A DNA stretch of 64,000 nucleotides from Rhynchonema sp. JSB1_4. Its lineage: Eukaryota > Nematoda > Chromadorea > Monhysterida > Xyalidae. Shown here one piece after another: positions 14,099 to 61,611 of this stretch (its first letter is position 1; each line of letters starts with the position of its first letter). Both the position numbers and the translations under genes were made by a program. The notes under the pieces were generated by a model, which did not search any database, had not been told where the DNA came from, and was given only the letters and a program-made list of their open reading frames with translations. The stretch spans positions 1 to 64,000 of the forward strand of contig JASAMV010008029.1 in NCBI GenBank assembly GCA_030248065.1, read 5' to 3'.

Positions 14099-17000
14099 CT
14101 AGTCAACGACTTTGTAGACGTAGGCCCTCAGGTCAGGTTCCTCTTGTTTCTTCGGCGGTGGTGGTTCCTCTCCAAGATCGTCGCCGAAGCAGTACGTGTC
14201 CAGATCCTCTTCGACGTTCATCAGATGTTGACAGCCAACCTCTCTCTTCGGCAAGTTGGTCTGAATTTCCACACATTTCATGTTTGCCTGAAATTGCAAG
14301 TTCATTTTCCCTTTGATTGCATCTTAACGCGATCTGTCCACATGTACATACCTTTTTATGCCACATTTCGTGCAACAGTTTGCGTCTGCTGCTGTCCATC
14401 ATTCCGTAGTAGAATGACTCGGCCGAGCCGAGTTTGCGCGCGACCAGTGCGATCTGAGCTTCTTCGGCGATCGGGCCTTGATTGGACTTCATCGTGGAAA
14501 TGTCTGGCTCCACCTGCATCATGGTTGACGTGCATTTGATGGCTAACAATGACAGTTTGCCACACTTTTTATTGATATTCTACCACCCGTTGAGTGGCTG
14601 AATGATCATCTACATATGTATGCGGACTGCACACAATAATTAGCCTACTTTACTAGCCAGGTTCCATTCTATTAAGTTCCATGAGGAGTTAAAGCAAAAC
14701 CACGCCAACACGAGCCCGATTTCGGAGCTGGCAAAATGGTGAAACATTCATGACGTGGCTGCTGATTTGGGAAACGTTACACGTTGTGGCATACAACATG
14801 GAGCATGATGATTTTCTCTTTCTTTGCGTTTTGCAAGTTCACCACCTCCGAAATCGGGCTCGTGTTGGCGTAGTTTGCCTATACAATTTCAAAAATGGAC
14901 AACATTCCGTTATTCTCCACAACGTCGTTTTCCAAATTCCATGAGACCAATTCAGCACAGTAACCTGTCTCGTGCGAAACTCCATGTGAATTGCGTAGTG
15001 CAGATTGACATAGGCCAGTTCAATCCTGCGTGACATTACATGTTGGCAAAGACCGATAAATGTTGTGGACACAATCAACAGTACAATGTGAGGGATGAGC
15101 GTCCATTCGGGGGCACCTTCCGGCGCTGACGGTGACACGTCGCCCAGACCTTAAATTGGTTTTATTGGAAATAAAGAAAAATAAAAATGTTGTTTTGATG
15201 AAGATAACAGATAACTGAAATGTTCAAATGCGTATTTCTCAGCAACAGGTAGATCGGATGTCAATGTACAGCAAGTCCCCAAATGTCCTTGATACGAAAA
15301 TATTAGTTCAAAAGACCAACCGATAGTGAGAAAGCTGGTGACGAAATAGTAATTTGCGTCGAAATAGTTCCAGGTCGGTTCGAAGAACTGCGCCAGCCCG
15401 GAGCTGACAGCCAGACTGATCACCGACAGCAGGATACCCAACGAGATTGGGAAGGTTGCCTGAAATTGAAAGCAAGTTTATTGCGTCGTGACCCAGAACA
15501 TGTGGAATGAAATTGACACAGAACAGCCACTTGCTGGCTAGAAAGATTGGATGCAATCACCAACGTTGACGTTTGTCGAAAAACAAACGCGGTAATTTGC
15601 AACTTCAAAGTTATTTCAAAGCCTGCCTGAATTTTATTGTACAGCTGAGTGTACTCGACAGTTCGAAAGCCTCGAATTTGATCTTCGTCAAAGTCCGGCT
15701 CGTCGCGCGCACGCAGATACGACATCACCTGCCACCACAGCACGTAGATGCCTGCGTGATGTTTCACGGTCTTGGATGCATGTTTCAGACATAGAACAAC
15801 AATCGTTTCTGAAATGACAACCTTCGAACACGACCAATCCCAAATCGCCAGTCATCGACATGAAGAAGGGCACACCGATGAATGAATAGATCATGGTGAC
15901 CACACGACCGGTGGTGCTCTGCGGGTACAGGCGACCACCGAAACCTGAAGGTGTTCATTCTGTCTGGCCGCAACGCTGCGGACGAAGTTAAAAATTATTT
16001 GAATAAGCGGTTGAGAAACATTGAAACATCAACCAACCAACCGATACTAGTGTAGAGACTGCAACAGAAGAAGACAGCATTGAGCCACGACCAGCCCTCT
16101 GGTTTCATAATCGGTTCGTGCACGTCTAGACCCATCGCCTCTTCGTACCCTTCGATTAGCTCGCGCAACATCCATGTGTGATTCTGGAATTTGTAAACAC
16201 ACTCAACTGTCTGATATGTACAGTAGGTATACGACGATATCAAACTTGGTGATCGAGCAACGTGATCGGCTAGAATCGGTCTATACCTAGTCACATAAAT
16301 GTGGTATGACTAGGTGGACCGATCACATTGATGTGATATTGAATCGGTGTTGGTAACCACATCACGTGATGTGATAGGATCGGTATGCGCACTAACAGAA
16401 GCAGTCATTCGCACAAACTGCGTCAGTGACCAATACCGCATTTGTTCACGACATAGAATCTTCACTGCAGAGCACCAACTGCATAATGTACATAGGAGGT
16501 TACCGGTAAACTGGAGCCGGCCATAAGATAAGTTCACATGGGGAATTCACTGTACGGAGGTTCACTCACTATATTGAGCGTCGACTGTACAGCATTTGTT
16601 GCGATATGAGACAAGCATGTGGTTTACCACACAAAGGTTACATGATGTGGTAAGTTACCACATCATGTAACCTTTGTCACAGCGCTTTGGCAGCGCGTTT
16701 ATTTTTGCGCCCAGACTTCGGTCGATAAATTTAGACTTCAGCCTGGACGTAAAGGAGGCTCAAAGAAGGCTTAAAGCGGAAACTCAGATAACAAACTTGT
16801 ATCACCCACCTCAGCCGAATAATTTCCCACCATGAGCACGCCGTCAGTCAACTGTTTCATCCAGACGCTTCGATTGCGCAGTTTATCTGCTTGTCGATGA
16901 AACGCTTGGGTCCGAACCACCATATCGTGTTCGCCTGTGAAACATCAGTCAATCAGCTTGTTGTGCTTCTGAATCAACCAAACTGTTCGAGAGCGGCTTG

Positions 17001-17850
17001 TCAAGTTGTGGCAAGATACTGTACCTGCATAATACATATTACATACTACGTAACACATGCATACAGGGGCATGTTAGGTACCTAGGCACGTCGAGAATGT
17101 AGCCGACAGACAGCGGCGGAGAAAACGAAACAGCGGGGCTCAAAAACAGCTTTTTTCCAAAAAAACATTCCTTGGGAAACTGTCCCTAACGCCAAGTTTA
17201 GTCTAACCATAACGTTCAATATGTATAGCCTTGTTAACGACAACGCCAGATGGCTATTTTTTCGAAGCTAGCGTTCCCATCACTGCCTCGTCCGCACCAA
17301 GCGTCAACCACTTTCCAAAAAACCAAAACTACGGTACCCAACCTTCGATCGACGTATAGATCCAGGCGCCGAGCACTTGATACATCATAGTGGCGAATAT
17401 CCAGACAACGGTTTTCACAATGCCCATTTCCTGACATCGAACCCAAATGTACTCGCCCCAGCCCATCTTCTGCTTCCTCTCTGCCTCCATCGCCTCGCCG
17501 GTAGCTGAAACATCAACAGTTCGAATCACTGTCCTGCGCATCAAAACGTTGTCTCACGCTAACGAAACACGCATATCGAGACGGCGATTGAAAAAAATGG
17601 GCGACTTCCCTGATGGACGAGGGTGAAGAACAATAACAGAACAAACATGTCGTGTTATTTCACCCACCCTACCATTCGGTTGATCCACCGGCGCATCCTT
17701 TTGTGCCTCCTGATCCGGTTCCACAATGGTCACGTGACCGTGGTGCTGATTGTGATGGCCACTTGTCAACGTTGCGTTCGAGCCACGATTCGACGTCGGC
17801 AGTGTACCGTTGGACGGGTTTGGCGTTTTAGTTGAAGTATTTGTCTTCAT
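14099..17850 (-). CDS. K2P potassium channel A (TWK-like), 509 aa
   Basis: Ten exons: 17850-17673, 17504-17343, 16934-16810, 16183-16042, 15944-15822, 15751-15627, 15459-15321, 15149-14965, 14513-14352 and 14287-14099. All phases match and the sum is 1530 bp. The product is a four-helix, two-pore-loop potassium leak channel of the plasma membrane. M1 is about residues 88-112. Two N-glycosylation sequons (NRS, NHT) lie in the extracellular cap before P1. The first filter is TSIGFG (200-205) after GWSWLNAVFFCCSLY, and the second is TIGLGD (330-335). M4 follows in WTLIPHIVLLIVS. The C-tail has EPPPPKKQEEPDL before the stop. Intron 6 appears to use a GC donor (CAG|GCAGGC) and intron 7 an AAG acceptor. 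The start is the first ATG in frame with exon 1. A poly(A) signal candidate lies near 13813. Gene A groups with gene D by filter sequence. Confidence 0.93.
14701..14873. repeat. Foldback element in K2P A intron 8
   Basis: Arms of 27 bp, CGCCAACACGAGCCCGATTT at the left and AAATCGGGCTCGTGTTGGCG at the right, enclose about 120 bp of unrelated sequence. It lies within intron 8 of K2P gene A and fits a MITE-like insertion. Confidence 0.85.
16250..16400. repeat. Nested palindromes in K2P A intron 3
   Basis: GATCGG near 16254 pairs with CCGATC near 16318 around a CTAGTCACATAAATGTG core. A second nested palindrome, CACATCACGTGATGTG, follows at about 16358-16373. The segment lies in the 626-bp intron 3 of K2P A. 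Confidence 0.7.
16631..16677. repeat. Perfect 23-bp hairpin in K2P A intron 3
   Basis: Arms 16631-16653 and 16655-16677 are exact reverse complements separated by one base. The inner half contains TGATGTGGTAA and TTACCACATCA. This is a very stable potential cruciform or RNA hairpin. Confidence 0.9.
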
Positions 17851-23228: not shown

Positions 23229-26200
23229 CTAGAATATTTTGTAGACGTAGGCCCTCATGTCAGGGGTCGGAATCGGGGGCGGTGGTTTCGGTTCCTCACC
23301 CAAGTCGTCACCATAACAAAACACGTGCTTTTCCTCCACATTCATGAGATGTTGACAGCCGATCTCGCGTTTCGGCAGATTCGTCTGCACTTCGACACAT
23401 TCCATGTTGGCCTGGGTGATGTTTCAATCGGGAATATGGCTTGATCGCCGGTAAACACCAGTGGCTTCGAATCTAAGGCTTAGTGTGGATTCGCACTGAC
23501 GATGGCCTGCTGCACTTGAGACCTGGCGTTTTCTTTCAGTGACCATAAAGGATATGCACTGATTAATATTGGACGCTGTATAGGTTAGAGGCCATCATAC
23601 GTTTCCACACACCAACCTTTGTATGCCAGGCATCGTGCAACAGTTTCCGCCGACTTCTGTCCATGTACACGCCGTACAACAGCGATTCGAATGATCCGAG
23701 TTTGCGAGCTATCAGCGCGATCTGCGCCTCCTCCAGCACTGGACTCTTGCCCGATTTCATTGTCGAAATGTCGGGCTCAACCTGATTAATCGGGGAAATT
23801 GATTGCTGCAGAAATATCCATTACTCAATCCAAGGTTTCCTAATAGTGTTTGATTCTTTCCTTGATTCTTGTGAACATTGCGTGAGTTTGTGACTTGTGA
23901 GTTGATCCGACAATCGCTGAAGTTTTTAGGCAGATAACGAAACATTCACAAAATTATCCTTTTCGATAGGTTATTGCACATAAGACTCCAAGAACTTAAA
24001 TTTCGAAATTTCGTGCGACTTTGAACAAATTGACGAACATCAATGAAAACTTTGGAAATTTCGCAACAACTGCCAAGAAAACTGTGGTGATGGATGACGA
24101 ACAACGGCAGTTGATTTCATGACAAAAAACCACCCGTATTCACGAACCTGTCGTGTTCTGAACTCCATATGAATGGCGTAGTTGATGTGCACCATCGCCA
24201 GTTCGACTCGACGCGAAAGTACGTGTGCGCACAGACCGATGCAGGTCATGGAGAAGGCCAGTAGGATAATGTGCGGGATCAGGGTCCATTCGGGGCCGCG
24301 CTCGGGGGCTGAGGGCGACACGTCACCAAGACCTGAAACATCAGGCATACATATCACCTCGGTATGCATTTTTCTGGCTCGATGACACAATGATCTTTCT
24401 TATTGATCATTGATCATATGGCGATTTTTTTAGCAGATTGTAAGCTTGATCAGCGTAAAGATTGCTTGTTGAGGGTACACAAATTTTTACACGGTCAAAA
24501 GGTCGCATAAACACGGCCAGTGGTTGACTGATTGGTGCGCTAAATACGACCGTAAATAGGTACCTGCCAAACGCTGAGACAAGTACCAGGGGTGCAATGT
24601 GTAAGAAATTTATCCAGAAAAAGCAGAAGGTGACTAAAAAATAGTCCCCACTTACCGATCATCAAGAAACTGGTCACGAAATAATAGTTGGCGTCGAAAA
24701 AGGACCAGGTCGGCTCAAAGAACTGCACCAATGCTGAGCTCAGCAGCAAACTTAGCACCGACATCAGGATACCGAGACTGAACGGGAACGTGCTGAAAAC
24801 CAAAACAAACAAGTTTTCTATTCGCAATGGATAATGACCCGTCACAATATGGAGAACCCTATCACGGTAAACGGCAGGTTCCCAATCTGCCCCACAAATA
24901 TCTTTACGGGGGCTCCATTGCAGCATTGAATTTATATAAGGCAGTCTTGATTGAACCACTATACTGGGGTGGACTGTGCTGTTTTTTCATCGGTATCCCA
25001 TATACCTGATCATTTTCTGGTACAAGTCGCAATATTCCTTCGTTCGAAAACCACGCAGTTGGTCCTCGTCAAACTCAGGTTCCTCACGGGCGCGTTTGTA
25101 TTCCATGAAGTTGAACCAAATCGCGTAGAAACCTGTATGCAGTTTAGACATTTTTGGTGTCATGTGGCTATCCGGTGCATTCGTACTGACGATGACCTGG
25201 TGCACCGCTGTGTGTGAAAACAGAACGAAACGGGGAGAACATCAGACCGTCAGTATACGGAAGGTTGTTTTTTGACAGGCACACACGTCAACGACATGTG
25301 TCAACCACCTCACAATTAGCCGCAGGCATTTCTATTCAATTTGATCAACAAAACGAACTCACATTCGAACAGAAATAGACCGAAATCGGCGACCAAACGG
25401 AAAAATATTGGTTGAGTGAGAATCGAGTAGACCATCGTGACGACACGACCGAGATTGCTCTGTGGGAACAGACGACCACCGAACCCTATAACGGCGGTCA
25501 TACGCTCACTTCGCGTTAGATGTGAATGCAATGGAAGAGAAAATGCGACAACTGACCGATACAGGTGTACAAGCTGCAGCAGAAAAAGATTGAGTTCAGC
25601 CACGACCAGCCCTCTGGTTTCATGATGGGCGGAGTCAGGTCCAATTGCATGTTCTCTTCATATGTCTCCAGCAACTGGCGGAATAGAGCTGTTTGGTTCT
25701 GCAAAAATATTCTCCGCTATAACGTGTTAGATACGCAACGAATGAATGGTTGTAATCAGGTGTGATGGTACATTGGCATCCGTCGTGGCCATGACATGTG
25801 AAGCAACGACAGCTAAGACAAGAGAATACCAACCACACACGATCACCTCGATGGCAGATGTTGCACGATGGTGTGCATCTGGATCACGCACAAAAATATT
25901 TGATGACCAGACTTGATCAATTGACCACTACCAAATGGTTCCACTGCCAACCCAGAACAGTCCCAATGAGTACCCACATGCGCCAGGTAGCTGTCATTGT
26001 CACTGACGTCCATGATCGCATCCACTGTCTCATCCAACCATTCGGTGCGATTTCGCAATATCTCCTCTTTCGCGTGGAACGCCTTCAGACGCAGCAGGTG
26101 GTCGTACTCGCCTGTGAAACATCAACTGGCTCGTTTATAAATCTGGGGATACTGTGCATGCACTCAGACACGAGTCTCTCTGGCCGGCGGATCGGCTTTG

Positions 26201-26629
26201 CCACGGGACTTTCTTGATATTATGCGTGTATAAAACCATCTCTCACTTCATATGTTCTGGTAATGACGAGGGCATTAGGTGCATTCGCACTGACGACGAC
26301 CTGTGCACCACCCGTCTGTGAAACAGGTCGAAACTGGCAACCAGGCAACCAGAAAACACGCCAAAGTAGTAACAATAGTATTTACCTTCAATGGCGATAT
26401 ACATCCATGCTCCGATGCACTGGTACATCATGGTGGCGAATATCCAGGCAACGGTTTTCACAATGCCCATTTCCTGACATCGAACCCACGTGTACTCGGC
26501 CCAGCCCATCTTTTTCTTCTTTTCCGCCATGGGATCATGGTATGATGTTTCAACCAGCTCCTCCTCCTTCGGCTCCTCCGCACCTTGATTCACCAAGGCG
26601 GCCTCGGATTCTGTCGCTGCGTCCGGCAT
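23229..26629 (-). CDS. K2P potassium channel C (TWK-like), 479 aa
   Basis: Nine exons: 26629-26386, 26111-25978, 25698-25557, 25485-25363, 25132-25006, 24792-24656, 24332-24148, 23781-23617 and 23411-23229; sum 1440 bp, all phases consistent. The N-tail is acidic (EEPKEEELVE). M1 is VKTVAWIFATMMYQCIGAW. Sequons NRT and NQT lie in the cap. The first filter is TCIGFG and the second MIGLGD (Met for Thr, as in gene B). Intron 5 has phase 2 and falls just before TFPFSLG, two bases from the position used in gene A. Three introns carry the TGATGTTTCA/TGAAACATCA word at the acceptor (introns 1, 6 and 8). One more copy lies inside exon 1 and another about 60 bp upstream of the start codon. Confidence 0.93.
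26271..26345 (+). repeat. GACGATG intron repeat, copy in K2P C intron 1
   Basis: GTGCATTCGCACTGACGACG followed by a CCTGTGCACCACCCGTCTGT segment and then GAAAC...GGTCGAAACTGGCAA. It matches copies at 25165, 38753 and 55151. Confidence 0.75.
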
Positions 26630-28257
26630 TATGCTCGATACTTGACAGCCTGTGCAAAGTTGACAAACCAGTTTATTCCATCACACGAGGGTTGAAACAT
26701 CATCAAGCAGCTTAATCGTAAGGCTTGGCCTTTCCTATGACAAATGGACACTTGAGATAGCAGAAATGTAGCCAAAAACGGGAATGACCGGCACAAAAGC
26801 AAGCTTGTAAGCTGGAATATTTTGAAGTAACAACGTCATCACGTTGGGTATTACGCTGACGTCATATTACGAAATCGAAGCATCAATGAATGACAGTTCC
26901 AAACCAGAGATATGACTGGCCAAACAGAGCCACATGAACTGTTGTGGCCACATTGCGAAACGTGTTCATTCTGATGTGGTCTCTCTTCATTTTCCGCTGT
27001 TGTGCTCAGTTAAACCTTGTTTTGTGAACCAGAAAAAAGATCTGGAGCAGACCCACATTATTTTCATTGTGAGCTGCACCAGTGTGGGCTACATATCTAC
27101 GTGACAGACACACAGCAGCTACTGTAATACAAAGGGAACGAACGTGTACAAAGATGGTGAGTACCATAGGCACAAGCAAGGTCTTGAAGTAACTTTCGTG
27201 GCTGGGCACACTATGCGGGCCCGATAATCCGCAGAGGTCACCAAAGAGCAGAGAAGCCAGTCATTTTCAGTCCCGTATGCACCCCAGCCTGAAGTGCATC
27301 TTGCCGCAAGACAAATACATACCCTGGTCTTTATTATTGTGCTGTAATGTTGAGGCTTATTCTCCCTTTACCTGGTATATGTGTACGGTTGGTTTGTTAC
27401 TCACTCTGTTGTGCGCTGTGCGACTTCAGCTTTATGGCGTCTGCGCTAACTTTTCAAACCAAAACCAACTTTCAGTGCATTACGTGTAGTTTTGGGCTAA
27501 AATCTGTGTGTTTCAGTTTGCAACGGGGGCGTTTTTAGAGAGACTGGTGATGACAGAAAGTTGTCTTTGAAGGTTTTTTAATGCGTTTTCATGCCTTGGT
27601 TTTGTCCTGTTTAAGAACTGAGAAGGTCGGACAGGGTCAGGTTAACTGACAACCAGGTGTGGAAAAAATAAACTCATTATTTGGAAGGGACAGTGAAAAA
27701 ACGGAAATAACAAGCCATCGTGGTTCTCGATGGCAAGACTGCGGTTTGCGAACCACCACAACGTACCGTGGTGGCTGAGAAGACACGAAGTTGTAATGTG
27801 ATTTTCAAGCGTTCTTTGCAAATGTTTTTCCACACAATAATAATGAATTTATACTTCGCATTCAAACTGGCAAAATGTGGGATTGGGTAATTCAATGAGC
27901 CCATTGCTGAGCGATGGCATAATCCTGTGACAAGAACCCCAAGCAAATACAGCAGCCAACGTCTTGGCCTAGCGAGATAAAGCTCAAGGGAGTCAAGGGA
28001 TCACGAAAGAATAGATTTTTTTGAGTTTTAGAATAATAAAAGAAAAAACCCGACCCGGGAATATAAATGCTCATAAAATACAATGAATAAAACGACAGTG
28101 AAAGCTAAAATCAATCAATGCACGAACACAGAATGAGGGAAGGTTTGCAGCTCCTGATTAAATTCTCTTTTTTGATCACTTTTACACAAATTGATGCAGA
28201 TAAGTGTGAAAACACTGAAAATGCAAACTTTCCCGCCAGTGTTTCAAATGCGGTATT
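26630..28257. other. Spacer between K2P C and K2P D
   Basis: No exon is recognised in 1.6 kb. It contains short imperfect inverted repeats (for example around 27720-27785) and a TGAAACATCA word near 26693 upstream of gene C. Confidence 0.5.
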
Positions 28258-31200: not shown

Positions 31201-32496
31201 CATCAGCTCTTGTTCCTGTGAATGTTTGTCGCATATATACAGTATGTGTGAGGCTAGTGTGTGAATGACGTGTGTCAACCATTCTACAATAGACCCCTTA
31301 CCCACCTGTTCACTGTATCCGCCAGTGCTTACAGTCAACACACTATCCGCAATTTCATCCAACCATTCCGTTCGATTCCGCAATACTTCCGCCTGCGCGT
31401 GGTATTTCTGCAGTCGAAGCACGTGATCGTACTCGCCTGCAAGCGGAATTTGGCCATGTTTAAAAAACGTTCAGTGCATTTTTGTTAAAAATGTCGGTAA
31501 TTTATATATGTGCAGTGCCGTACGAAATTTTGGGCAACGGACCAGCAAAACCATTCTTTGTCATTACATTCAAGTTACAGAAATTACCGGCATTATGTAT
31601 CGGTATCTCGCGCCAGCGGTGCGCTTGTTTGTCACAGAGCTGTATTTGGGGATTGGGGCTCGATTCGGGGTTGGGGGCTTTTTGCGGAATACTCCGGTAT
31701 CTGTAGCTGCGGGACAACCATAAATAACAAGCAGCATCAAAGTACCGACCTTCAATAGCGATGTAAATCCAAGCACCAAGCACCTGGTACATCATGGCCA
31801 TAAATATCCACACAACGGTTTTGACCACACCCATTTCTTGTGCGCGCAACCAGGTGTACGCACACCAGCCCATCTTTTTGCGCTTGCGGGCTTCATAGTC
31901 GAGCTCTTCCACAACCTGTAACTGATCGATGTGGTGCATTCTCACTGACGATGTCCAGGAGCACCACACATATGCGAAAGCAGCAAAGCTGTGCTGTCAT
32001 GTCTCTAATTTTGACGAGCGTGAAAGTAGTTTTGAGACAGCTAATAAACAACGTTTTCAATATTGTCGATATCAATCTTGAAGTGTCTAGCATGATGTAC
32101 ATAGGACAGTGCACTAATTAGGGCGAACTTAGGTTAAATCCGGAATCCGGAACCCGGAAATACTGTGCACGCAAAAATACAAAACATTTCTGGGCTCCGG
32201 AATTATGTCCGGAAAACGCAAGAGTTAGCATGTAAAAATTATGCGTTTTCCGGAAATATTTCCGCATTCCGATTTCCGGATTCAGCCTAAGCCTGCCCTT
32301 AGGGATGCTGTGTGCCAGAAGTTAAGTTAGTAGAATAAATTTTAAATAAAATGAAACATCATTATACCTGACTGGTCTCCATCAGTTTCTGCTCGGATTC
32401 GGCCGGCGGGGAGTGATCGCCAATTTCGACCACGTCGACTTCATCGTCATAATCGTGGTGGTGACCCTCGTCGTGTTTACGGAAACTGTCCGGCAT
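28258..32496 (-). CDS. K2P potassium channel D (TWK-like), 495 aa
   Basis: Nine exons: 32496-32368, 31915-31750, 31436-31306, 31215-31074, 30852-30730, 29938-29675, 29199-29015, 28883-28722 and 28443-28258; sum 1488 bp, all phases consistent. The N-tail is His/Asp/Glu rich. The first filter is TSIGFG and the second TIGLGD, as in gene A. Exon 6 (264 bp) is uninterrupted where A, B and C all have an intron, so this gene lost it or the others gained it. The TGATGTTTCA word lies just after the donors of introns 1 and 4 and before the acceptors of introns 5 and 8. Exon 4 itself contains TGATGTTTCACAG in coding sequence, a perfect mimic of an acceptor; using it would shift the frame. The tail ends in PPPPPKPEEPDL before YVYKIVD. 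Confidence 0.93.
30085..30485. repeat. Foldback MITE of about 400 bp in K2P D intron 5
   Basis: Terminal inverted repeats of about 52 bp: left TAACGCAGAATTTATGGCAG then GATCCGTAAAGCGGAAAA; right TTTTCCGCTTTACCAATCAG then CTGCCATAAATTCTGCGTTA. The interior is AG-rich and non-coding. Confidence 0.88.
32126..32292. repeat. Foldback element in K2P D intron 1
   Basis: CTTAGGTTAAATCCGGAATC at the left pairs with ATTTCCGGATTCAGCCTAAG at the right. Inner words CCGGAAA and TTTCCGG are repeated in both orientations. Confidence 0.75.
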
Positions 32497-44500: not shown

Positions 44501-47500
44501 GGCTTGACCCTGTCGCCGAAAGTGTAGTAAGAGAATCCGCCAAAAACGTTGTAGAACACAAACACGGTGCTCAACGCCAGACCACTGGCTTTGGCAAAAT
44601 CGGCCACTCGCCGATGTTTGAACCGACCGTACACCGCCACCGAACAGAGATCGAACTAAAAGGAGAGAGGAACCGTTGTTGGTAAGCAGTTGGAAGGTTG
44701 CGGACACTGAAGCGCAATTGCGTGCTTCACAAAATTTTTGTCTAACGTGATACACAACGAAACGAGCACTAATTTTGACCAGCGTAAAACTTGTTGATGA
44801 GGGAAACAACTTTGACGACGGTCAAAATCAAGACTTCTTTCTGGTGAGTCACACAATAACAGTTTTGTCAATGCTGAATCACGCCGCGTGATTCAGCATT
44901 CACGCCTGCTGTAAAGAAGACGACTGGTTTCTTTATAGGTTCTCCTAGTAGCAGTGCCGTCGTGCAAAAAACACTGCCGTTGCAACAGCCTTGGCTTTGA
45001 AACGGACTTGTTCATTTGACATACAATTCTGGGGTTTTCTAATTCTGATGTCCAGTGCTATGTATGTCCTAATGCAGAAGAGACTTGTGATGCGCAAACG
45101 AATAACTTGTACGGCGGTCAAAAACGTTTCATCAACAGTAACCCCTCAATACAAATAGTCCCGAATGATGTTTCAGTGACCATATAAGCAACGGCATAGG
45201 CAGGTATGGCAGCAATCACGTCGACGGGTCGATCGGGCGTGTAGCGAATGTGCACATCGTTGTGTTCGATGTTGAAAAATTCGTACACCACCACTGCTGC
45301 CACGATGAACACCGACACCGATGCGACAGCACTGCAATGAGCAGGTTAGTGTAAAGTGGGTGACGCACAACATTGACACGCAATGGTCGACATCAAACTG
45401 GATGATCGAATCTAACTAGTCGGGGTCCAACATCGACTAAACATGCTAATGCTACGGCATCATATAGAAAGTCTAGCAAGACCAAAATTGATTATCCGCA
45501 AGTTGGTCCCTTGACAACAATAAAACTTCGAGTTCATTTTCGAGTGGCTTCGATTTTGAGACGTTGAACATAAATTTTGTCAACAACATGTGTCAACCGC
45601 GCCGTAATGAAAATAAAATATGTTTAACTCAGCTTGGAACCAGCGCTATCGTAAGGGGTGATTCGGATAGCTTTTTATTGAGCTTTCTTCACAATGATTT
45701 TTTGGCTGCAATTTTGCATTATTTTTCAAACTTGCACTAAACCTTCAAAAAGGCTAAGATAAGCGCTGCTCTTGACAGTGAGATGTTTCACGGACCTTGC
45801 ATAGTGCAACGCATCAATGTGACGCACGAGACAGAACGGGAATATGATCAACAGGGTGACCAGAATCATCAGGTTGTACTTTTGCAGATACCACGGATGT
45901 TCAGCCTCGTGATCCACAGACAACATGATTTCGAATGCTGAAATGACGACATGTTGTCAGTCAACTTTACCAAAATTGAGGCCATCGGCAAGCGTATTGC
46001 GCTTTTGGCAATTGATCAGTTTTGCCTTGGTCCCGTGATTGCGCGTAACGATTTTTCGAATTAATGTACTGTATTTGCTGAGTTCGACAAGCTTTGAACT
46101 TGTTATTCTAGACCGTCTGGAAATTAGTTTGACTTTCAAACAATCGTGGAATGGATCCGACGTACAACCGATCATCATAAAGTTCAATTCAGGTCAATAT
46201 TTCCAAAAAAAACGTCTAATCCTAGTCAATCAATCCAACACCCCCAACCGGCTTCCAACTGTTGTCCAATAGCAATGATGTACGATGTGCACAGCAGGAA
46301 CGAGAATGCCAGTATCAACACCGAACAAATGACCTGACCGCCACTGCCCAGGTAGAGTTTGACGGTGTCCTGGTGGGGGCAACAGATGTAAAAGGTCTTT
46401 GCTATGATGGTGAGCAAAGTATCAGCTAGAAACATGATTTCCTCTCTCACATGTCGACCTGAACCCATAGGTTCTTTATTCGGGGCATTGCTTTTAGCTA
46501 TGTATGTATGAATATGAAAGTATTTCCGAGGATTCTATTTAGCTGTGGCGTATTTTCCTGGTCCTATGAGATTCACGTTTGGCCCCGACCATGAAGACTG
46601 ACCACAAAAAGTTCAATCTCAAATTTCAGATCTGAGTGGGATTCGAAACGACCAAGTGGGTCGTTTTGTATCGTCAAAGATTGAGGCACTTACTTGATAG
46701 TAGTGACTGCCTCGGATATGTGAACACCAGATCATACAGGAGACTGCTATGTACAATATCGCGACCATCACCTGTGTGAATGCAATGAAAGAGAAAATAT
46801 GGTTGAAATCAAAGAGAAAATCGTTTCATGGTCTATCCTCTTTTGACATAAAATCGGTGTCACGTCATTTTCGGTCACCATGAAAAATATTCATTGCGAT
46901 GACGCTGGTCTAATTTGGCAGGGTTACTGCAGATCGGCAACCAGAATTTCGCTCCATGCAAGCGGTTTTTACCAGAAAAACGCTCAGTGTCGCCAAGTCA
47001 GATCGTCAGCTGCCAAGTATATTTTCTCGCGCTAAGTTGGGGCTGTTTGACTTGACGACGATGGCTGACCACTTGAATTGACGAATGTACCAGATGAGGG
47101 TCGCTGTATAAGAAGTCAGCCACCCACAAACCAGTTGAATTCCGATCGATACGAAAACACCGCCAGCACGGTCGATCGAGTACGGGAAGTTGAGCACACC
47201 GGCACCAACCAATGCGTTGATGAAGATCAGAGTGGCCCAGAACCAATGGATTCCTGCAAATGTGGCGGTTCGAAAACTATATTTGATCAAAACTCATTAA
47301 TTCAGGATTATGAGTCATTTCCTAGCGTGAACATTCTCCTCGCGTGGGACTTTTCCTAGCGACACTCCCTCGCGTCCATAGTTAAGGAATATTTGATGGT
47401 TTTCGGCTTATCAATTGCGTAAGTAAGGTGTGAAGTTACCAAATCTGTGCATTACTTTCACTTCCAGATACCTAATCGCCCATTACATAAAGAACGACGA

Positions 47501-48266
47501 AGTCAGAGTGAAACATGAAAATGAACGAAAACTTGCACAATTGTGATCACTGCTAGTTTATCACTCACGTTACTAAAAGTTACTTTTTGCAAACTTACTG
47601 AGATTAAGCTCACGGTATGAGATATAAATGTGCGATGGTATCAAAAGTAATATCAATGCAATCCGCTGGTCAATCTGCGTGCGATGGTGCAGAGTAAAAT
47701 GCTATCTGAACAAGTAAGAAACAGTAAAAGCCATTGCATCCATTGCATGTACATGTATATATACCTGTATACATGTGCTCACGCCCGTGAGAAAGTGTCC
47801 AGTTACAGTAGCACACGCGAGGAAAAGTCCCAGCGCGAGGATAATGGACCTTCACGCGAGGAACTTTCCCAGGCGAGGAACTGACACCGGCGAGGAAAAG
47901 TCACAGCGCGAGGAACTGTCGTCGGACCTCATTCAGATGTGCACATCGAAAGCCAGAAGCGAAAAAATAAGTGCGAATGCACCATTTATGGCCCACAAAC
48001 AGTCAAATCCTAGTTCGTAGTTTCACTCACGCGTGGCACTCTGCTTTTCGTGCGCACTGTTGAGCACGAGAACCGACGGCATGACGGTCCACCACACTGC
48101 CGGTGTTGATGTTTCACGCGCACTATTTATATCACTAACACTGGTACGTACCATCACTGGCTCCTTGCCGGTCGCTCAACAGATAGGACATTGACGTGAC
48201 CGAGAATTTTCCGGACACGCGTGCGCTGTCACCAGCTCCCGCTGCCGCCGCTGTTGCTGCTGTCAT
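41534..48266 (-). CDS. SLC38-type sodium-coupled amino acid transporter, 495 aa
   Basis: Eleven exons: 48266-48152, 48096-48031, 47253-47132, 46771-46694, 46369-46249, 45937-45796, 45331-45181, 44655-44491, 44269-44172, 43815-43607 and 41754-41534; sum 1488 bp, phases consistent. The product is a multi-pass amino acid/auxin permease (AAAP) fold. TM1 carries the family signature FINALVGAGVLNFP (71-84), followed by RAGGVFVSIGIQL. Later segments match SNAT7/8-type members: SYIIAIGQQ, YNLMILVTLLIIFPFCLV, FNVFGGFSYYTFGD-like FYNVFGG, and FPGLCL split across the last intron, with a final helix RVLAMFLVLLGLGLTIVLIV. The start is the first ATG, giving a long cytosolic N-tail rich in Ala. Introns 6 and 7 carry GAAACATC right after the donor and intron 1 carries TGAAACATCA before the acceptor. 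The last intron (1.85 kb) holds an inverted pair of transposon-like repeats. Substrate is inferred from family only. Confidence 0.9.
42090..42382 (+). mobile_element. Inverted repeat pair, left copy (about 293 bp)
   Basis: Reads CAACAAGTAGCGTCCCAGTG, then an internal palindrome CGGTTGACTGCAGTCAACCG, then CCGCAGTCGACTGCGG, and ends near AAAGTCAC. The same sequence occurs in reverse at 43154-43465. Both lie in the last intron of the SLC38-type gene. The class is unknown; no tRNA box or transposase was seen. Confidence 0.9.
42497..42607 (+). repeat. TATTACATACAAGTTTCA short tandem repeat, three copies
   Basis: ATTATTACATACAAGTTTCA recurs at about 42500, 42541 and 42582 with different spacers. 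It lies between the two arms of the inverted pair. Confidence 0.8.
43154..43465 (-). mobile_element. Inverted repeat pair, right copy (about 312 bp)
   Basis: Reverse-oriented copy of 42090-42382, nearly identical except for a local duplication of the word GGTAGCCCCC near 43320. With the left copy it could form a stem of about 290 bp with a loop of about 770 nt in the pre-mRNA of the SLC38-type gene. Confidence 0.9.
44870..44900. repeat. Short hairpin in SLC38-type intron 7
   Basis: AATGCTGAATCACG pairs exactly with CGTGATTCAGCATT across a 3-nt loop. Confidence 0.85.
47325..47375 (-). repeat. CGCGAGG minisatellite fragment, inverted
   Basis: CTCCTCGCGTGGGACTTTTC and CTCCCTCGCGTCC are reverse-strand units of the array at 47812-47930. 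It sits in SLC38-type intron 2. Confidence 0.65.
47812..47930 (+). repeat. GCGAGGAAAAGTCCCA minisatellite
   Basis: About six irregular units of roughly 18-20 bp built on CGCGAGGAAAAGTCCCAG, some reading GCGAGGAACT. It lies in SLC38-type intron 2, with inverted units at 47325-47375 at the other end of the same intron. Confidence 0.8.
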
Positions 48267-53100: not shown

Positions 53101-56100
53101 TTTTATTTTATTGTTTCGACCCAAAATATGGTCCAATGCACGTTACATAGACAGTCAGGCATGGGTAAAATGAGATTTTGAAAGCGTGAAACTACATAGT
53201 GCGCCGAAATTATAAAATATTGGAGATTGATTTTATGACATCAAACGCTGTTCAGTACAAGTTGGGTGACGCTTGTGAACAGGTATGCAACCGGTACATG
53301 GGCCCAACGGGCAACTTTTTGTCACGCAGTTATGTCACGTTTGTTTTTGACTGCAGGGTAGGGTATGTTTATGGTTAAATTATATCGTCTCAAAGATGTT
53401 TTGCAAACTTTTTGTTACAAATGGTTACTGTGATCAGACTGTGACAGTACTGCTTGCCACAACAACACCAAATCGTTTCAATTTCGATGTCGTGCATTGT
53501 TTGTTGTCATACACATTTATGGCTTCATTCCACACCATTATTTTCACTGCCCTGAATTGGACAGACCAAAGTTTCCCATGACAAAGATTTTGAAAACAAA
53601 TTTTCGACTTAGTCTAACATGCGCCGGACGAAATAATAATCTATAAATCTCATTCATTCCTATTCATTGAATTCCAAACGACGCGGACATTTTGCGAATT
53701 GTGTCATGTAAACAAAAATAAGATAACACAAAATATGACACGAGATGGGAAAAAGAATCGCCGTGTTGGTTGTATCAGATCACAGTATTTTCCTTAGATT
53801 CATTTCTGAAAATTGGATTTCATCATTAGTCCCAGGAATAGGCCGACGGCTACACCGGCCCAGATCAAATTGCGTCATAGTGCGTCCTCTTTGTAGTGAC
53901 ATAATCAGGAGGACAAGTCAATTTTCGTCACTGTAAAAATGTACAGGATTGCTTCCAGTGAGATAACAGAGTGGTTGGGGGCCAAAACACAAAACTTTCA
54001 GTTTTGTGTTTCATTCTATCACTGTAAAGAGGGTAGATTCACCTTTGTGATTCAGGCCTACATCCGTCAAGGTCACGCGTTCAAGGCGATGGGTGACCCT
54101 ACAGCGGCGCTGCTGGCTTATGCCACCGGACTGACTTACGATCCGAAAAACGAACAACTCATCGGATCATTGATTGATTGCGTAAAAGCGTCTGAATATG
54201 CCGGTTGGCCTTGCAACTTTTGTGTTTGTGAAACATCACAATAGTGTCTAGCTTCTTGAGTACTAGAGGGTGTTGCAAGCGTAGCTGTTTCAGGCAACTT
54301 TGTGCAATAATACATACCAACCAATATTTCGTGGTTTTTCAATATGCAACAGGATCATGCATAACTACTTTTGTTGATTTCTGCGATATTGACGTTCACG
54401 TGGGACGGCTAACAATTATCCAGTGTGTCAGCGGAGTGCGTCAACGACCTTGTACACAGCCAAGTTTTTGTTTCAGCCCGTTTCGAGCCCGTTTACGAAG
54501 AAATGAAGTCGCTGGGTGGCGGTCTGGACAGAAGTGCTTTTGTGCTGGTCTCCTTGATCGGTCAGGATCTGCTTGCAGCCGGAAAAGTCCAACCGGCGAT
54601 TGAAATGCTGCAGACTGCGCTCAGAATTGGCACCAATTCATTAAAGGTACGCAAACGAGAAACGTCGCTTTTATCACACGCAACGGAACACTTTTCTATC
54701 ATCCTTTTTTCAGTTACGACAATCGGTGCTGTCCGCTCTGTCAAGTGCCTATTGGACCAGTGGCAATGTACAGAAGGCTGCTGAGTTCATGAAACAGGAT
54801 CTGGAAATCGCCACTAAATTGGGTGCGTGTTGACTCATTCCGCATAAGATTTCATTAATAATTGATTTTTGTTTGTAAATTTAAAAACACAGGTCCAATT
54901 TTTTTCAAATAAAGTCGACCCGGTGGGCGAGGCGCGCGCGCACAACAACCTCGGTATGTTGATGATGGCTGCCAAGAATGAGCATGAAGCGCTGGAACAC
55001 CACAAACAGGAGCTGTGTCTCAGACTGAAGGTATATGTCGCAGTGGGTGATGAGAGTATCGTGCCAGAAGGACTGTGGGGATGACGTAGATTGCGACACA
55101 CACTCACACAAAGTTGCCTGGGTTGATTTTGAACTGCGCCCAACACGTGCGGCCATCTGGAGCGCTTGCTCTGACGATGACCTGCTGCACCGCCCGCCTG
55201 TGGGAAAGCACGTCGAAACGGGCAATCTAGAAGACGCACAGCACAATTCACATCGGGTAACCTACATGCGTAATATTCATAGATATAATGTGTCAAACAC
55301 TCCACACATCGCTGTCCAACTCAAGAGACTCGATCATCATGTAAAATGAGTTTGCCCGCTCTAACCCGTTTTCACGGATGGGCGGTAATGCATCAGCCGA
55401 TCGTCAGTGAGCAGACACGCCCGAAATGGTCACGTGACCGCAAAAGACACTCAATTTTTATACATACAGTAACCCACCTTACAGCTTGGCGAGGATGCAG
55501 CCTGCGTCAGTATTCTCTGCAACATCGGTCATCTGCATTTGCGACTGGGCGAGATTAATCGGGCGCGCGATTCCTACGAACAATGCAGGGAGATACTGGA
55601 GTCACTCGCTGAGCACGAACAACCAAGTGATCCGAAACTGCCGCTGAATGTGTTTATGGGATTGGCGCAGGTCGGTGAAACATCAAGGCCTAACTGCATA
55701 TAGTACTTCGTTCTCTCGCGCAACATGAAAGAAATTTTCCTACGCTGATTGATTCTCACGCGCTCGCCAGCCACTCAGCGCGCGAGAATTTGTTTCGTGT
55801 TGCGCGAGAGAACGAAGTATACAGTGTAGTTCGGCCTTTACCTGACCCTGAAGTTCAAGGCAATTCTAGATACATACCTGTTTTCTCAGAATGCCATGTC
55901 GGTATCAAACTTTGTGATCTGCCGTGGTCTTACATTAGGTGCACTTATCGGACAACGAGCTGGACCTAGCGGATCAACTGCTACGCAATTGTCTGCAAGC
56001 AACCAGCGAGCTACAGGACAGTATTGAACAAGCCAGGGTCACTTGTCAGTTGGGCCGAATCGCTGTGAAACGCGAATTGTATGGCGATGCAGTTGGGTAC

Positions 56101-59100
56101 TTCAACCAGTCCCTGGAATATGCGAAAGTCGCCAAGGATAAACAGCAACAGGTCTGGGCTTTCTGATCTTGACGGTAAACTTTGTTGGTAATTATGGGAA
56201 AAGGCACCCCGCCACCACGAGCAGGCACAGAATACAACTTATAAATACATACAAACCTACCTATCCCAGTGATTTCGAGTTCGCAGGTAAATGATTTTCA
56301 TGCCATCCGTGGAGCAGTGAGCAGTGATTTGTCAGAGCTATAGCAGTTGAAGTGATAGTGATATTCAAAATTGTAGAACTTATTCAACATTTTGTCAACC
56401 ACGTGTGCCAATCATTCGAACACAATACACTGTATTTCAGGCAGTGGCGTTCGGCCAACTTTGTCTGGTCGCCCAGGCCCAATCACATTGGGTGCCTGCG
56501 AAAAAGTACGCTGAAAAGGAACTGCAAATAGCGCTGTCACTCAAGGTCTGTTCATTTCCCGGTTGACATTTCTTCAGTGACAGTCCACCTAATCTATACC
56601 GTGACATGATTGGGATTTTAGATCATGAAAGAATATCACAACCATATTTAGGGCCAGGAGATTGACAGTAAATTTGAGACCAAACTCTCAGTCACTAGAA
56701 GCGTATAGACGCTGAAACATCACGCACGTGCAGGACCAAGCAATCGAAGGCGCAGCATGCGGCCATCTGGGTTCGATCTACGAACAATGCCGGGACCCGG
56801 ACAACGCCATCCGACTGCATCGCAAACATCTCGATTTGGCAACAGCTTCGTGTGATTGCCGGGGCGAGGCAACGGCACACGGCAATTTGGCACGCTGCCA
56901 GAAACGACTGGCAAACTGGCAACAATGTAGAGAGCACGCAATCGTGCAGCTGAGACTCTGCGAACAGTTGCAGGTGGTTACTGGGGGTCGGGGTGCTTGG
57001 GGTTCAAAGTTGATGGGACTCTGTGTCAGTTATATCCGTGTCGTGTTTATGCCGATAACCCGTGACAATCTCTCAAGAATTCGACCTCATTTTAAGTCGA
57101 TTGTGTAAAAAACCAAATCTCACGTACACAGGACAAAAACGGTCAAATCGACGCGCACGGCTACCTGGCCGAATCATACGATCAAGTGTGCGACTATGAC
57201 ACAGCACTGAAACACTGGCTGGAGCGCTACCAACTTTGTGAACAACTGAATACCAACTCCAAGCCATCGCAACAACTACAATTGAGGACACTTTCGTCGA
57301 TTTCGCAACATTTCATGCGTCGTGGCGTGCAGTTCGCAGCAGAGTGCGATGATTGGCTGAGTCGATATCTGATGTTGGCACAGGAACACGGCAATGCGCC
57401 CGCCGAGAGACACGCGTGTGAGCTGCTCGGAAGGATGCATTTTGACTGTCAGAGGTGGGGTGATTTAAAGATGGTTGACACACGTCGTTATCATCATGTC
57501 ACGTTGCTTTGATACCACAATCGTTATTGTTTTCGGCCAATTGTAAGCTGTAAGGTCAATTGATGATGTACATGTATGTACATGTTTGCGTTGGAGTGAT
57601 CAAAGTGCATGTAGGTGCGTCCACCATACTAAAAAATTGGCTGATGTTTACTTGTCCAACCTAAGTGGTGATCTCGCATCGTCAGTGTGTAGGTGCGCTT
57701 TTGTCCATGCTCGATGGGCATGATAACAACCTTCACAGCGTTTCCAACGGACCAGGAGATGTCGGGTTCCCATGAGCTTGCACAGTGCTTTCCAATGTTT
57801 CACATGACCGTCTTTTCACCGGCTCATTCAAAATATCATGCAAGAAGTCACACTACTTCCAAACACATCCCACCATGTTCGCAGATATCGCGAAGCGACC
57901 CGGTATTTCGAGCAAGAATTGTCGATAGCGAAAGACGCCCGCGACTACGGCGGGATGTCATCTGCATATTCGTGGTTGGGTCGCACCCATTTGGCCACCA
58001 ATCAATTAGTGGACGCGTTGGAGTGTCAAAAGTACTATTTGGCATTGTGCCATATTGGATCGGACATAAATGGCAAACTGGCGGCGATGCGGCAGATTGC
58101 CGACACCCTGATCAAGAAAGGCGATGTCAATGCGGCTGTGAAGGTGCTGAGCAAAGGCATGCGGCTGGCGCGCAATGTCAAGTCCACGCAGCAGGAGGCT
58201 CATTATTATGCGGCACTCGGCGCCGTGTACATGCGGGAACAACGGTGGGTGCACAGGGTACTGTATATGTACAGATTGGTGACCTACTGTGGAAGGTGGT
58301 TGACGCATGTCGTTGACGCAGTGCCTTAACTTACGGCCGCCAGAATCTTTAAACCGGTGCGGGTTTCAAAATTTGGAACCAAATCTGCCTTGGCATACTG
58401 CATGTATAGCTGTTTCATGATTGGAAAATTCTGGACAGTCACGTGTTCGAGGTATGTATAGTTTGATAAGTACATACAGTTTGATATCAAGTCATCAGGC
58501 CATTGATGTGCGGTTGTTAATTACGGCCCACCCTCTATTTTTAAATCGATCAGGAGGGACCCCCATTTTCGTTCACTATGAAGAGTACTTATTGCACTTG
58601 AGGGGTATTCAGCGCCTTTTAATGACATATGAACGATCAACTTACCTTGTCCACTCAGGTTCGACAAGTCGATGACCTTCTACGCGCAGGGATTGGCCAT
58701 TTGTGAACAAAGTGGCGATGTCAGGGGACAGTACGAATTCCAGGGTCGGATCGCCGTGTTGAATCGCCGACTACGCAAACCGGCCACTCACATTCTGACT
58801 GGACTCAATGAACAACTGAAACTAGCCGAACTACTGCAATCGCCCGATCGGCCTTTCCTATTGGCGCAGGTAAACATGGCCTATTCAGGCCAGGGTTACC
58901 TATGCATATACGTATACTAGTTAGTGTTAGACTGTAGCGACGACTTATAAACCTCAGATTGTATGTCTCAGCTGGCCCCGGGTCCACGGACCAAGTTGTT
59001 GCAGAACATGTTTTCTACTTCGACAAGATGGTGTATATTTTTCAGATGCATTTCATAATCCGTAAGTGCAGGGCCATAACTACTCGTATGTACATAATGT

Positions 59101-61611
59101 TCCCTGTCATCAAAAGCGTTCGGTTTACAAATCAGGGAAGGCATCTGAAAAACTTAGCCCAGATTTATTCCGAGAGTGCATTTACACCGTTTACAATGCA
59201 TTTACAGGTGCACATGGCGTTGGCGACCACCTACCAACAATGGCGTCGACTGCCCGATGCCGTGAAACATCTGCGTGGCACAATCGCGCTGCTGGAAACT
59301 CCGGGCGCGCAGCAGATGATGCAAGGACTCATGTTAATGTTGGTGGTGTCATGGCTACTAATTCCTTCAACTTAAGATTGAGAAAAGAATAGTAGCAACA
59401 TGGGGGATGGCTATGACTGAAAAGTCGACAATTTTCTCTGCACCGGGCACTTATTTGCACACCAGTCACTTTCGGCGAAGAATTTCGTTGCATTCAAGAC
59501 GAATTTCATTCACATTGGTTGATACAACAGCTGTAATTGTCGGTCACTTCGGAAGCTTTCACTATAGACATAGAGGCGGGTGTCAGACATAGTTCCGCTG
59601 TAATGAGAGCAGCTATACTAAAAGCAGGCCTACTGCATCCAGGTTCGACGCCGAATGGCTGCTGGCCGAACTGTTGCAACAACAATCGTTGACGGCCGAT
59701 TCGATCCGTTCATATGGGCGATTCATACAGTCATCGACGCAAGAATCGGTCGCCGAGACCAATCAACCGCGGGTGGCGTTGGCCTACAGTCGGATGGGAC
59801 ACGCATGGTTGAGGATGGCGGATGGCGGCAGATGTGTGGAGGTGATCAATGATGCGTTGACGGTTATGCAACATTGTGCCGTCGATGCGAACATCAAAAT
59901 CGGCGCGCAAAGGTGGGCAAAATGGGGCTGTTTCGTTGGTTGTTTGTTATTTTTTTTGGAAATAATGCCGGACCGCGGCTGATTTAACTTGGTTACTGGA
60001 TCCGCCTTGACCATATGGCCTGCAACTTGAGTTTCTGACGTTTATTGACACACCCAAGTTTTCTTGACCACCTATTCTTCTGAATTTTGAGTTCAACGCT
60101 TTGTCAGTAGAGTGTCTCAACAACCGGTGTCACGTGAATTACGCTGCTCTGCTTTTCAGATGTCTAGCCGCTGCGTACTGTCTATTATCGCAATTCGACC
60201 AGGCGGTCGCCACGTTACAACTCAACCTGGACTTTGTGCGTCGGCTGCAGCTCAATATCGATCTAGCCCATATTTATGGCGATTTGTGCAACGTGCATGT
60301 GCTCGCGGGGAAGCCTGATCTGGCAAGGCAACTCGCCACTGAACAACTTGATGTTTCAAGGCAATTGGACAATGCTGGTGCACAGGCACTGGCCTGGTTG
60401 CAACTTGCGTGGGTTGAACTGAATACAGCACAGCAAGAGGAGAATAGTCAGGATGGGAATGCAGCGGCTGAACGATGTTATGGTCACGTGATGGATATGT
60501 GCTCCAATATGCAGCAACCGCAATCGGAGCAGATGGGTGTTTGTCTGATGCAGGCGCATTTGGAAATGGGTACGGGATGGGTTTGGATGTGGGGTTATTG
60601 TGGAGTGGGCGACACACCATGTAATTGACGCAAAGCCGATGTCCGATCGAAGTTTGTTAAAGAGCATCTGAAATTATTGCTGGTGGTGTTGCGTTTGGTT
60701 AAACATTGTCAATTATGTAACGGCTGTGAGCATTTTTCTGTTTGGTGTTGTTTTCACTCAGTGCGAATGCGCCATTGACTTCAGCAAGAATACGTGTGTC
60801 GACAGTGGAGATCTTATTGCTTTCATCAACATCAGTTGACTACCTTACACTAACATCTGCTGTTTATAAAATCCTATATGAAACATCACCCAGGCATCTG
60901 TGCAATCACGTCCGGCGACCACGCGCTGTCATTGAAACATCTCCAAACAGCAATGACGCTGGCCTCCAACAACACGACAGCCATGTTGCAGACTCGACTG
61001 GCCAAAGTGGTACTGCAATGGATGGTCGATGATCTGCAGGTTGTTTGTCCGACACAGTCATTCTCATCTATTGTGGATCAGTCTGTTTTGTGGAATGGCA
61101 ATTTGGTCCAATGCCAGCACCAAGGACTGAACAGTTTTTGTTTGGACCGTTTTTTCGTTAGATTCGAGACATGACATTTACTGGCTAAGCCATTTACTTC
61201 GACCAGCGTAAACGTTGTTCGTTATGAAAATTAGACCAGCTTTTACACCAGTTAACAATGGTGCTCCAACTCTTGCGCATAATACGGTTCCATTCGATCA
61301 ACTGCGTTTGCCTTACCGTAATCCAACCGTCGTCGTGGTCGTAGTGCTTGTCTTCAAATGTGACCTGCCTTCTGCAGAAAAAGCCATCCAATCCAATAAT
61401 ATAATTCAGGAATTTCCAAATTCGATAAAAAAAACAAAAATATAACAAGCGATAAACTTCTCAACTGCAGGCAGCGTTGGTCGAAGCGACCGCAGCAGTC
61501 GAGCTGTGCCATCGATTCACATCGAATGTGCGTGACGTCGACGTTGTGCAGGACGCACTGCGATACGGACTCGTGGCTGACATTCGATCGGCCATTTATG
61601 TGCTGCAAATG
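50104..61611 (+). CDS. TTC28: TTC28-like tetratricopeptide repeat protein, 19 exons, 3' end not found
   Basis: Exons: 50104-50157, 50826-50921, 51188-51343, 54056-54203, 54477-54646, 54714-54822, 54915-55030, 55485-55670, 55939-56151, 56441-56545, 56734-56973, 57132-57454, 57885-58244, 58659-58869, 59208-59338, 59643-59912, 60160-60569, 60894-61039 and 61471-61611 (1195 codons, phases consistent). The first TPR unit is EALRLYNETIRLDPSNHVLY then SNRAAILAKL. After it come FEPVYEEMKSL, LIGQDLLAAG and LSALSSAYW, the order seen in TTC28 homologues, then many TPR and TPR-like units. TPR solenoids bind protein partners; TTC28 homologues end in a CHAT-type region. The last exon reaches SAIYVLQM, which corresponds to the segment just before that region, and ends at a GTGACA donor. 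If the donor were skipped a stop would come at 61648-61650. Exon 15 could end at 59332 or 59338. Confidence 0.87.
55151..55255 (+). repeat. GACGATG intron repeat, most complete copy B
   Basis: GGCCATCTGGAGCGCTTGCT, then CTGACGATGACCTGCTGCAC and CGCCCGCCTGTGGGAAAGCA, ending GCACAGCACAATTCACAT. It is the counterpart of 38753-38842 and lies in intron 7 of the TTC28-like gene, followed by a GGTCACGTGACC palindrome at 55428. Confidence 0.88.
55428..55439. promoter_or_regulatory. GGTCACGTGACC palindrome in TTC28-like intron 7
   Basis: Exact copy of the 12-bp palindrome, 45 bp before exon 8 and downstream of a GACGATG repeat copy. Confidence 0.5.
55693..55826. repeat. Foldback element of 134 bp in TTC28-like intron 8
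   Basis: Arms TACTTCGTTCTCTCGCGCAA and TTGCGCGAGAGAACGAAGTA are exact over 20 bp and extend further outward. An inner pair involves GATTCTCACGCGC and GCGCGCGAGAAT. Confidence 0.9.

Follow-up and report, generated by a model that had tools for sequence, protein, structure and literature searches.

The window is a stretch of 64,000 nucleotides (nt) from the nematode Rhynchonema sp. JSB1_4 (contig JASAMV010008029.1, positions 1 to 64,000). It contains 26 exact copies of a 10-letter word, TGAAACATCA/TGATGTTTCA. That word, and its likeness to the promoter element of small nuclear RNA (snRNA) genes, are the subject of this report. In 100 dinucleotide shuffles of the 64 kb, the mean was 0.52 copies and the maximum was 4. 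With up to one mismatch to TGATGTTTCA, 46 sites were found and 10.4 were expected. A preliminary description of the window gave about 25 copies, far beyond chance. That excess was confirmed, with an expectation of 0.52 in place of about 0.1.

The locus encodes four tandem K2P-like channels, A to D, at 14102-17850, 19366-22300, 23235-26600, and 28261-31900. They carry the pore signatures IGFGG and IGLGD. The usual K2P pore signature is GYG. The search with K2P A returned four matching proteins, and the three named ones are from Plectus sambesii (24-26% identity). Donor sites in these genes (window 14-32 kb) read GTNNGT, several of them GTTGGT, and not GTAAGT. K2P A intron 3 (16184-16809) contains palindromic runs built around ACCACATCA/TGATGTGGT, which may belong to a family of local repeats. 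The copies of TGATGTTTCA are listed below with their strand and their offset from the splice site.

4548..4557, plus strand: donor+21 in a weak ab initio model
6407..6416, minus strand: K2P-like fragment, TGAAACATCAcgcag before the GIYVLWW exon; acceptor-5
15757..15766, plus strand: K2P A intron 5, antisense to the gene; acceptor-5 by spliced alignment
16022..16031, minus strand: K2P A intron 4, sense; donor+10 by spliced alignment
16938..16947, minus strand: K2P A intron 2, sense, TGATGTTTCACAG; acceptor-3 by spliced alignment
17506..17515, minus strand: K2P A intron 1, sense, TGATGTTTCAG; acceptor-1 by spliced alignment
23417..23426, plus strand: K2P C last intron, antisense; acceptor-5 by spliced alignment
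24334..24343, minus strand: K2P C, sense; acceptor-1 by spliced alignment
26115..26124, minus strand: K2P C, sense; acceptor-3 by spliced alignment
26543..26552, plus strand: K2P C coding exon, frame ...VETSYHD..., by spliced alignment
26693..26702, minus strand: near the K2P C 5' end; weak model, with its alignment-made acceptor 82 nt away
28449..28458, plus strand: K2P D last intron, antisense; acceptor-5 by spliced alignment
29948..29957, plus strand: K2P D, antisense; acceptor-9 by spliced alignment
31054..31063, minus strand: K2P D, sense; donor+10 by spliced alignment
31196..31205, minus strand: K2P D coding exon (LMFHS), 10 nt past the acceptor; spliced alignment and ab initio
32352..32361, minus strand: K2P D first intron; donor+6 by alignment, donor+11 ab initio
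38378..38387, minus strand: acceptor of a gene in the glycosyltransferase region (name from the preliminary description); 1 nt in the model, 5 nt by reading
41517..41526, minus strand: by-eye reading, 7 nt past the stop codon that closes a minus-strand frame
45166..45175, plus strand: gene strand uncertain; ab initio acceptor-1
48107..48116, plus strand: gene model uncertain, ab initio
54229..54238, minus strand: TTC28-like gene region; donor+25, ab initio
55676..55685, minus strand: TTC28-like gene region; donor+5, ab initio
56713..56722, minus strand: TTC28-like gene region; acceptor-11, ab initio
60349..60358, plus strand: TPR coding exon (LDVSRQLD), ab initio and reading frame; we take it to fit the TPR pattern without an insertion
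60879..60888, minus strand: TGAAACATCAcccag; acceptor-5, ab initio
62906..62915, plus strand: exact match without a gene model

Placement at splice junctions

The K2P introns came from spliced alignments in which the K2P A protein was matched to the three paralogues beside it. The end introns of B, C, and D are weak. We used 33 of the 41 aligned introns (9/9 in A, 8/11 in B, 8/11 in C, and 8/10 in D). The eight that were dropped as weak or odd contain no copy. Of the 12 intronic copies, 11 are no more than 10 nt away from a splice site, against 9% under uniform placement (P = 3.4e-11). The paralogues are not independent cases. When copies shared by paralogues were merged, the count was 7/8 (P = 3.5e-7). 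The offsets are few: acceptor-1 or -3 and donor+6 to +10 for sense copies, and acceptor-5 or -9 for antisense copies. Four paralogue pairs hold the word at the same splice site, and intron positions are common to the paralogues. In K2P D, the alignment of the coding copy (LMFHS) with the paralogues shows no indel at the word, which argues for substitution and not insertion.

The other genes were covered by a home-made ab initio gene model. Near the settings used, its K2P introns were exact in 26-27 of 31 cases, but part of its training was on these introns. It places the copy at 38378 at acceptor-1 (5 nt by reading), that at 55676 at donor+5, that at 56713 at acceptor-11, and that at 60879 at acceptor-5. 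The gene strand was trusted for 20 copies, with those at 4548, 26693, 41517, 45166, 48107, and 62906 excluded. Three of these are coding and 17 intronic; of the intronic ones, 16 have a junction within 11 nt. Among all 24 copies with any gene model, 21 are intronic and 17 lie within 11 nt of a junction. Orientation relative to the gene is balanced, with 9 sense and 11 antisense among the 20 trusted copies and 12 of each among the 24 modeled ones. The copy at 41517 lies just after a stop codon, so copies may also mark the ends of coding sequences.

Outside the window, contig C7 has 16 copies, of which we read 7, in an EGF-repeat gene. Two lie at acceptor-1, one at donor+15, one 6 nt inside an exon, and two in coding sequence; one is unclear. 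Four of the seven lie within 15 nt of a junction. The Argonaute loci contain four copies. The one readable copy lies at donor+18, and the model gives distances to a junction of 18, 26, and 55 nt for three of them. An ab initio sample outside the window contained 48 copies, 9 with a local coding score of at least 25. None of nine intronic copies there lies within 11 nt of a junction (0.84 expected). This is a weak negative, because the tool misplaced a copy (L036) that by reading lies 1 nt before the acceptor of an EGF exon.

The preliminary description had assigned copies to junctions of unrelated genes in both orientations. Spliced alignment reproduced its K2P assignments, namely A acceptors 1, 2, and 5 and donor 4, three C acceptors, and two acceptors and two donors in D. 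Junction copies are likewise present in other window genes (ab initio) and in the C7 EGF gene, and both orientations are used. Its 67 introns were covered here through the K2P alignments and the ab initio model, not one by one.

Copy number and flanks in the genome

The genome is an assembly of 203.9 Mb (about 204 Mb) in 5,747 contigs. It contains 37,556 exact copies of TGATGTTTCA and 345 of the letter-reversed control word, a ratio of about 109-fold. This count had been set beforehand as a test, and it is not near chance. Such an excess is striking for a 10-letter word in an animal genome. With up to one mismatch, there are 92,371 sites for TGATGTTTCA and 15,893 for the control. One-mismatch forms alone number 54,815 against 15,548 (3.5-fold), and the word is therefore strict. 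In the fetched sequence, with 156 exact copies, the commoner one-step variants are G to A at position 2 (11), C to G (10) or C to T (8) at position 9, and A to G at position 10 (8). Contigs C1-C23, with 601,510 bases and 93 copies in all, are unevenly populated (P = 4.6e-5), and contig C7 has the most copies, 16. A whole-word search in both orientations found no relevant mention of TGATGTTTCA in the open-access papers searched; the one paper listed concerned a bacterium.

Contigs C9 (L043 and L044) and C12 (L050 and L051) each contain two loci with alike, nonidentical flanks in opposite orientation. Repeats or inverted duplications therefore harbor some of the copies. On contig C3, copies on opposite strands are spaced alike. 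Repeats of this kind inflate the counts somewhat.

The strongest neighbor is a C after the word, in 47% of 102 nonredundant copies. Past the next few bases, no flank position in these copies has P < 0.002 except A at -11 (P = 0.0009). In 107 copies not selected by their flanks, the preferences are GCTGGC before the word and C after it, all weak. No further shared sequence, conserved body, or second or paired end was found around either set of copies, so the word does not form the terminus of any longer repeat.

Splice-site patterns were counted across the genome. The donor form, GTTGGTN{2,10}TGATGTTTCA, occurs 372 times. The frequency of GTTGGT in the fetched sequence would predict about 168, so the excess is real, but this form makes up just 1% of copies. 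The acceptor form, TGAAACATCANNCAG, accounts for 2,891 of the 37,556 copies (7.7%), against a CAG rate of 1.7%. Its commonest form among the 100 matches listed, GCCAG, is the weak DNA flank itself, and the CAG excess is therefore no proof of acceptors. Beyond the window, junction placement was assessed through small samples and these pattern counts. The modest excess of donor-like and CAG-flanked forms, the ab initio sample of nine, and the Argonaute loci speak against its being general.

Match to the snRNA promoter element

The snRNA genes fetched comprised 10 U1, 9 U2, and 9 U6 matches. Upstream of U1, TTATGTTTCA is present in 5/10 and exact TGATGTTTCA in 2/10 (L102 and L105), 34-35 nt before the match and in the same orientation. 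Upstream of U2, TGATGTGACA is present in four; TGACGTGACA, TTATGTTTCA, TCATGTTTTA, and TCGTGTTTCC also occur. Upstream of U6, four genes contain TGATGCTACA with a TATA-like GATAAAAG downstream. Despite the GTNNGT donors of the K2P introns, the U1 5' end is the usual ACTTACC in 7/10 matches, ACTAACC in L102 and L103, and ACTTACT in L105.

All 1,048,576 10-letter words were scanned against positions -85 to -26 of 22 promoters (U1 9/10, U2 8/9, and U6 5/9), with matches below the cutoff excluded. TGATGTTTCA ranks second, with a mean of 1.99 mismatches, across promoters several of which are close paralogues and so not 22 independent cases. The top word, TGATGTTACA, has a mean of 1.90 and is one letter away. 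Far lower come the reverse complement of TGATGTTTCA, at rank 361,304, and the reversed word, at 889,058; the match is hence to the sense strand only. A by-eye matrix of U1 (8/10) and U2 (8) sites has a consensus that is exactly TGATGTTTCA. With four U6 sites added, the word ranks 2, and with U2 and U6 sites without U1 it ranks 6. The word contains GTTTC, as nematode piRNA promoters do. Five U2 genes have a flank, GGCTGG[AC], that is similar to the weak GCTGGC flank of the dispersed copies.

Judged by its letters, the word dispersed here is the consensus of the PSE (proximal sequence element, SNAPc type), the element at which the snRNA-activating complex (SNAPc) is recruited to snRNA genes. In this genome, TGATGTTTCA has both the PSE consensus and the PSE position upstream of snRNA genes. 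The word agrees with the element in its letters and in its orientation and place in the U1, U2, and U6 promoters. The dispersed copies differ in that those examined have no snRNA-type gene after the word, except at the U1 genes L102 and L105, and in that the form of most U1 genes is not dispersed. This identity would directly link the snRNA transcription machinery to a genome-wide gene-body signal. The preliminary description overlooked it. The excess, junction proximity, and use of both orientations that it reported stood; the introner that it proposed was not supported, and the splicing enhancer is unlikely, as set out below.

Possible function of the dispersed copies

The reading that we favor is a dispersed SNAPc-type site with small-RNA output as its job, and we hold it about equally likely to be right or wrong. 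TGATGTTTCA would be a putative SNAPc-recruiting PSE core, copied to about 37,500 places, many of them inside genes. It would be read as double-stranded DNA, and either orientation would work. Its most likely job would be to recruit a SNAPc-type factor and start short transcripts like PIWI-interacting RNAs (piRNAs), by analogy with Ruby motifs and Pristionchus-type intronic loci. The word has letters in common with splice sites. In one orientation these are TTTCAG or TTTCACAG, and in the other the weak CTG flank reads CAG. A G or CAG directly after TGATGTTTCA gives it the ending of a 3' splice site, so that part of the element is already present wherever there is an acceptor. The splice overlap would be a by-product of the shared letters, with acceptors as cheap places for the word to arise or persist.

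Given the PSE match, the PIWI gene, the animal's nematode traits, and the precedents in Pristionchus and plectids, the closest known model is a dispersed small-RNA system that depends on SNAPc. PIWI-clade exons are present on contig C1663, with Siwi as the best PDB match (132 bits, against 64 bits for Argonaute-2). Contigs C3368 and C4595 have Piwi-domain matches at nearly the same profile positions. Another Argonaute has Argonaute-2 as its nearest PDB match and is presumably WAGO-like. According to PMC6436959, nematode piRNA promoters are derived from SNAPc sites with GTTTC, and in plectids the promoter motifs of piRNA and snRNA genes are nearly the same. The Pristionchus pacificus loci described there lie in introns of active genes, about equally sense and antisense. 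Of the intragenic loci, 97% are intronic and 3% are not, and just 20% of the motifs within active domains give rise to 21U-RNAs. The X chromosome has no piRNA loci in that species. The window pattern (17/20 intronic, 9 sense and 11 antisense) can be set beside these P-type loci for the window only.

The likeness to the Pristionchus P-type Ruby-motif 21U loci consists of a GTTTC motif related to the SNAPc site, a PIWI gene in the genome, and copies that, in the window, are dispersed, mostly intronic, and in both orientations. The system here differs in its strict 10-mer, its overlap with splice sites, its coding-exon copies, and its lack of a significant YRNT signal. Plectus also has near-identical piRNA and snRNA motifs, but the plectid motif described in PMC6436959 comes with a second 5' motif, and here there is only the weak GCTGGC flank. 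The favored reading would bear on the origin of nematode piRNA promoters from snRNA promoters. It would also bear on how a promoter-like site coexists with splice sites and coding sequence.

Several results weigh against small-RNA output. Ruby-type loci have YRNT, with the 5' U about 40 nt downstream of the motif (PMC4050365). No significant YRNT initiator was found downstream of TGATGTTTCA in 135 nonredundant copies, where offsets 43-51 have 89 against 89.9 expected. The best 9-offset window, 41-49, is at the expected start place (105 against 89.9; z = 1.7). In the 107 flank-unselected copies, it has 74 against 69.8, and the antisense control has 94 against 85.6. T enrichment peaks at z = 3.1 over 94 offsets, and the AT profile is flat. 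Rfam gave no noncoding RNA in the 64-kb window and, at 20 motif-centered loci, one transfer RNA only, listed twice. No clear element was seen at two of the 10 U1 matches (L100 and L104) or at the U6 match L092. The commonest U1 form, TTATGTTTCA, is at about chance genome-wide (2,024 against 1,728), and TGATGYKACA is barely enriched (3,493 against 2,799). SNAPc affinity alone thus fails to predict which words are dispersed. The three coding copies among the 20 trusted ones count on the same side.

The upper bound on copies with a YRNT start is 10-22%, and most copies are therefore not classical 21U loci. A classical 21U promoter at most copies is unsupported, since there is no significant YRNT excess. 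The limit applies to classical loci; the P-type pattern, with 20% of motifs in active domains giving 21U-RNAs, would be compatible with it. The dispersed sites would have either a stricter factor than the snRNA genes use or a job other than starting 5'U RNAs. A more novel idea is that a single, nearly invariant SNAPc-type word, set down tens of thousands of times in and around exons and with letters shared with splice sites, serves as a DNA mark of the organism's own genes (for example, licensing or a self tag) and not as a classical 21U promoter. We offer this tentatively and think it rather doubtful.

It is possible, if doubtful, that another strict DNA-binding factor (a paralogue of SNAPc, for instance, or a protein of the forkhead or Myb type) marks gene bodies for chromatin, pausing, or germline licensing and starts no RNA. 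The single strict word, the chance-level U1 variant TTATGTTTCA, the lack of a significant initiator signature, and the use of both orientations and coding sequence all suit such a factor. The Caenorhabditis elegans motif CTGTTTCA is reportedly recognized by forkhead factors (PMC4050365). The rank of TGATGTTTCA among the snRNA promoter words, 2/1,048,576, makes a wholly unrelated factor unlikely. An element acting in the pre-mRNA, with the 10-mer helping to define nearby splice sites, would explain the 11/12 K2P intronic copies near junctions, the four paralogue pairs, and the acceptor and donor overlap in the C7 EGF gene. The preliminary description had suggested a splicing enhancer of this kind. 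We consider it unlikely, given the balanced orientation to the transcript (9:11 or 12:12) and the copies in coding sequence. The donor form is also rare genome-wide, and the nine intronic copies sampled elsewhere, a weak test, lie away from junctions.

Introner elements have high copy number and overlap splice sites. If the word were an introner end, as also suggested earlier, the end of some other small mobile element, or an excision footprint, those two features would be shared, and its cloud of one-step variants would fit. No conserved body or paired ends were seen in the 102 and 107 copies, the 107 have only a weak flank preference, the exonic K2P D copy shows no insertion at the word, nor does the TPR copy seem to, and the K2P intron positions are shared by paralogues. 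We regard this origin as very improbable. Chance or an assembly artefact, to which copies in repeats and duplicated stretches might lend some credit by inflating counts, is refuted by the 109-fold ratio over the reversed word and by the 135 nonredundant copies with differing flanks among those fetched, and we give it practically no weight.

Further observations were made. A second word, TGGACCGAAA, occurs 22 times in the window and is probably a local repeat. On contig C2636, a mitochondrial locus (L108) contains ND5 and the 3' part of COX1 in both orientations, from an inverted duplication or an assembly fault. Among the 120 of 8,000 COX1 matches listed, those with names are mostly from arthropods and in a few cases from nematodes, at about 64-68% identity; the best match reaches 77%. 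The mitochondrial stretch that was read has the order ND5-COX3-COX1-ND3 on one strand, and this order is a nematode trait.

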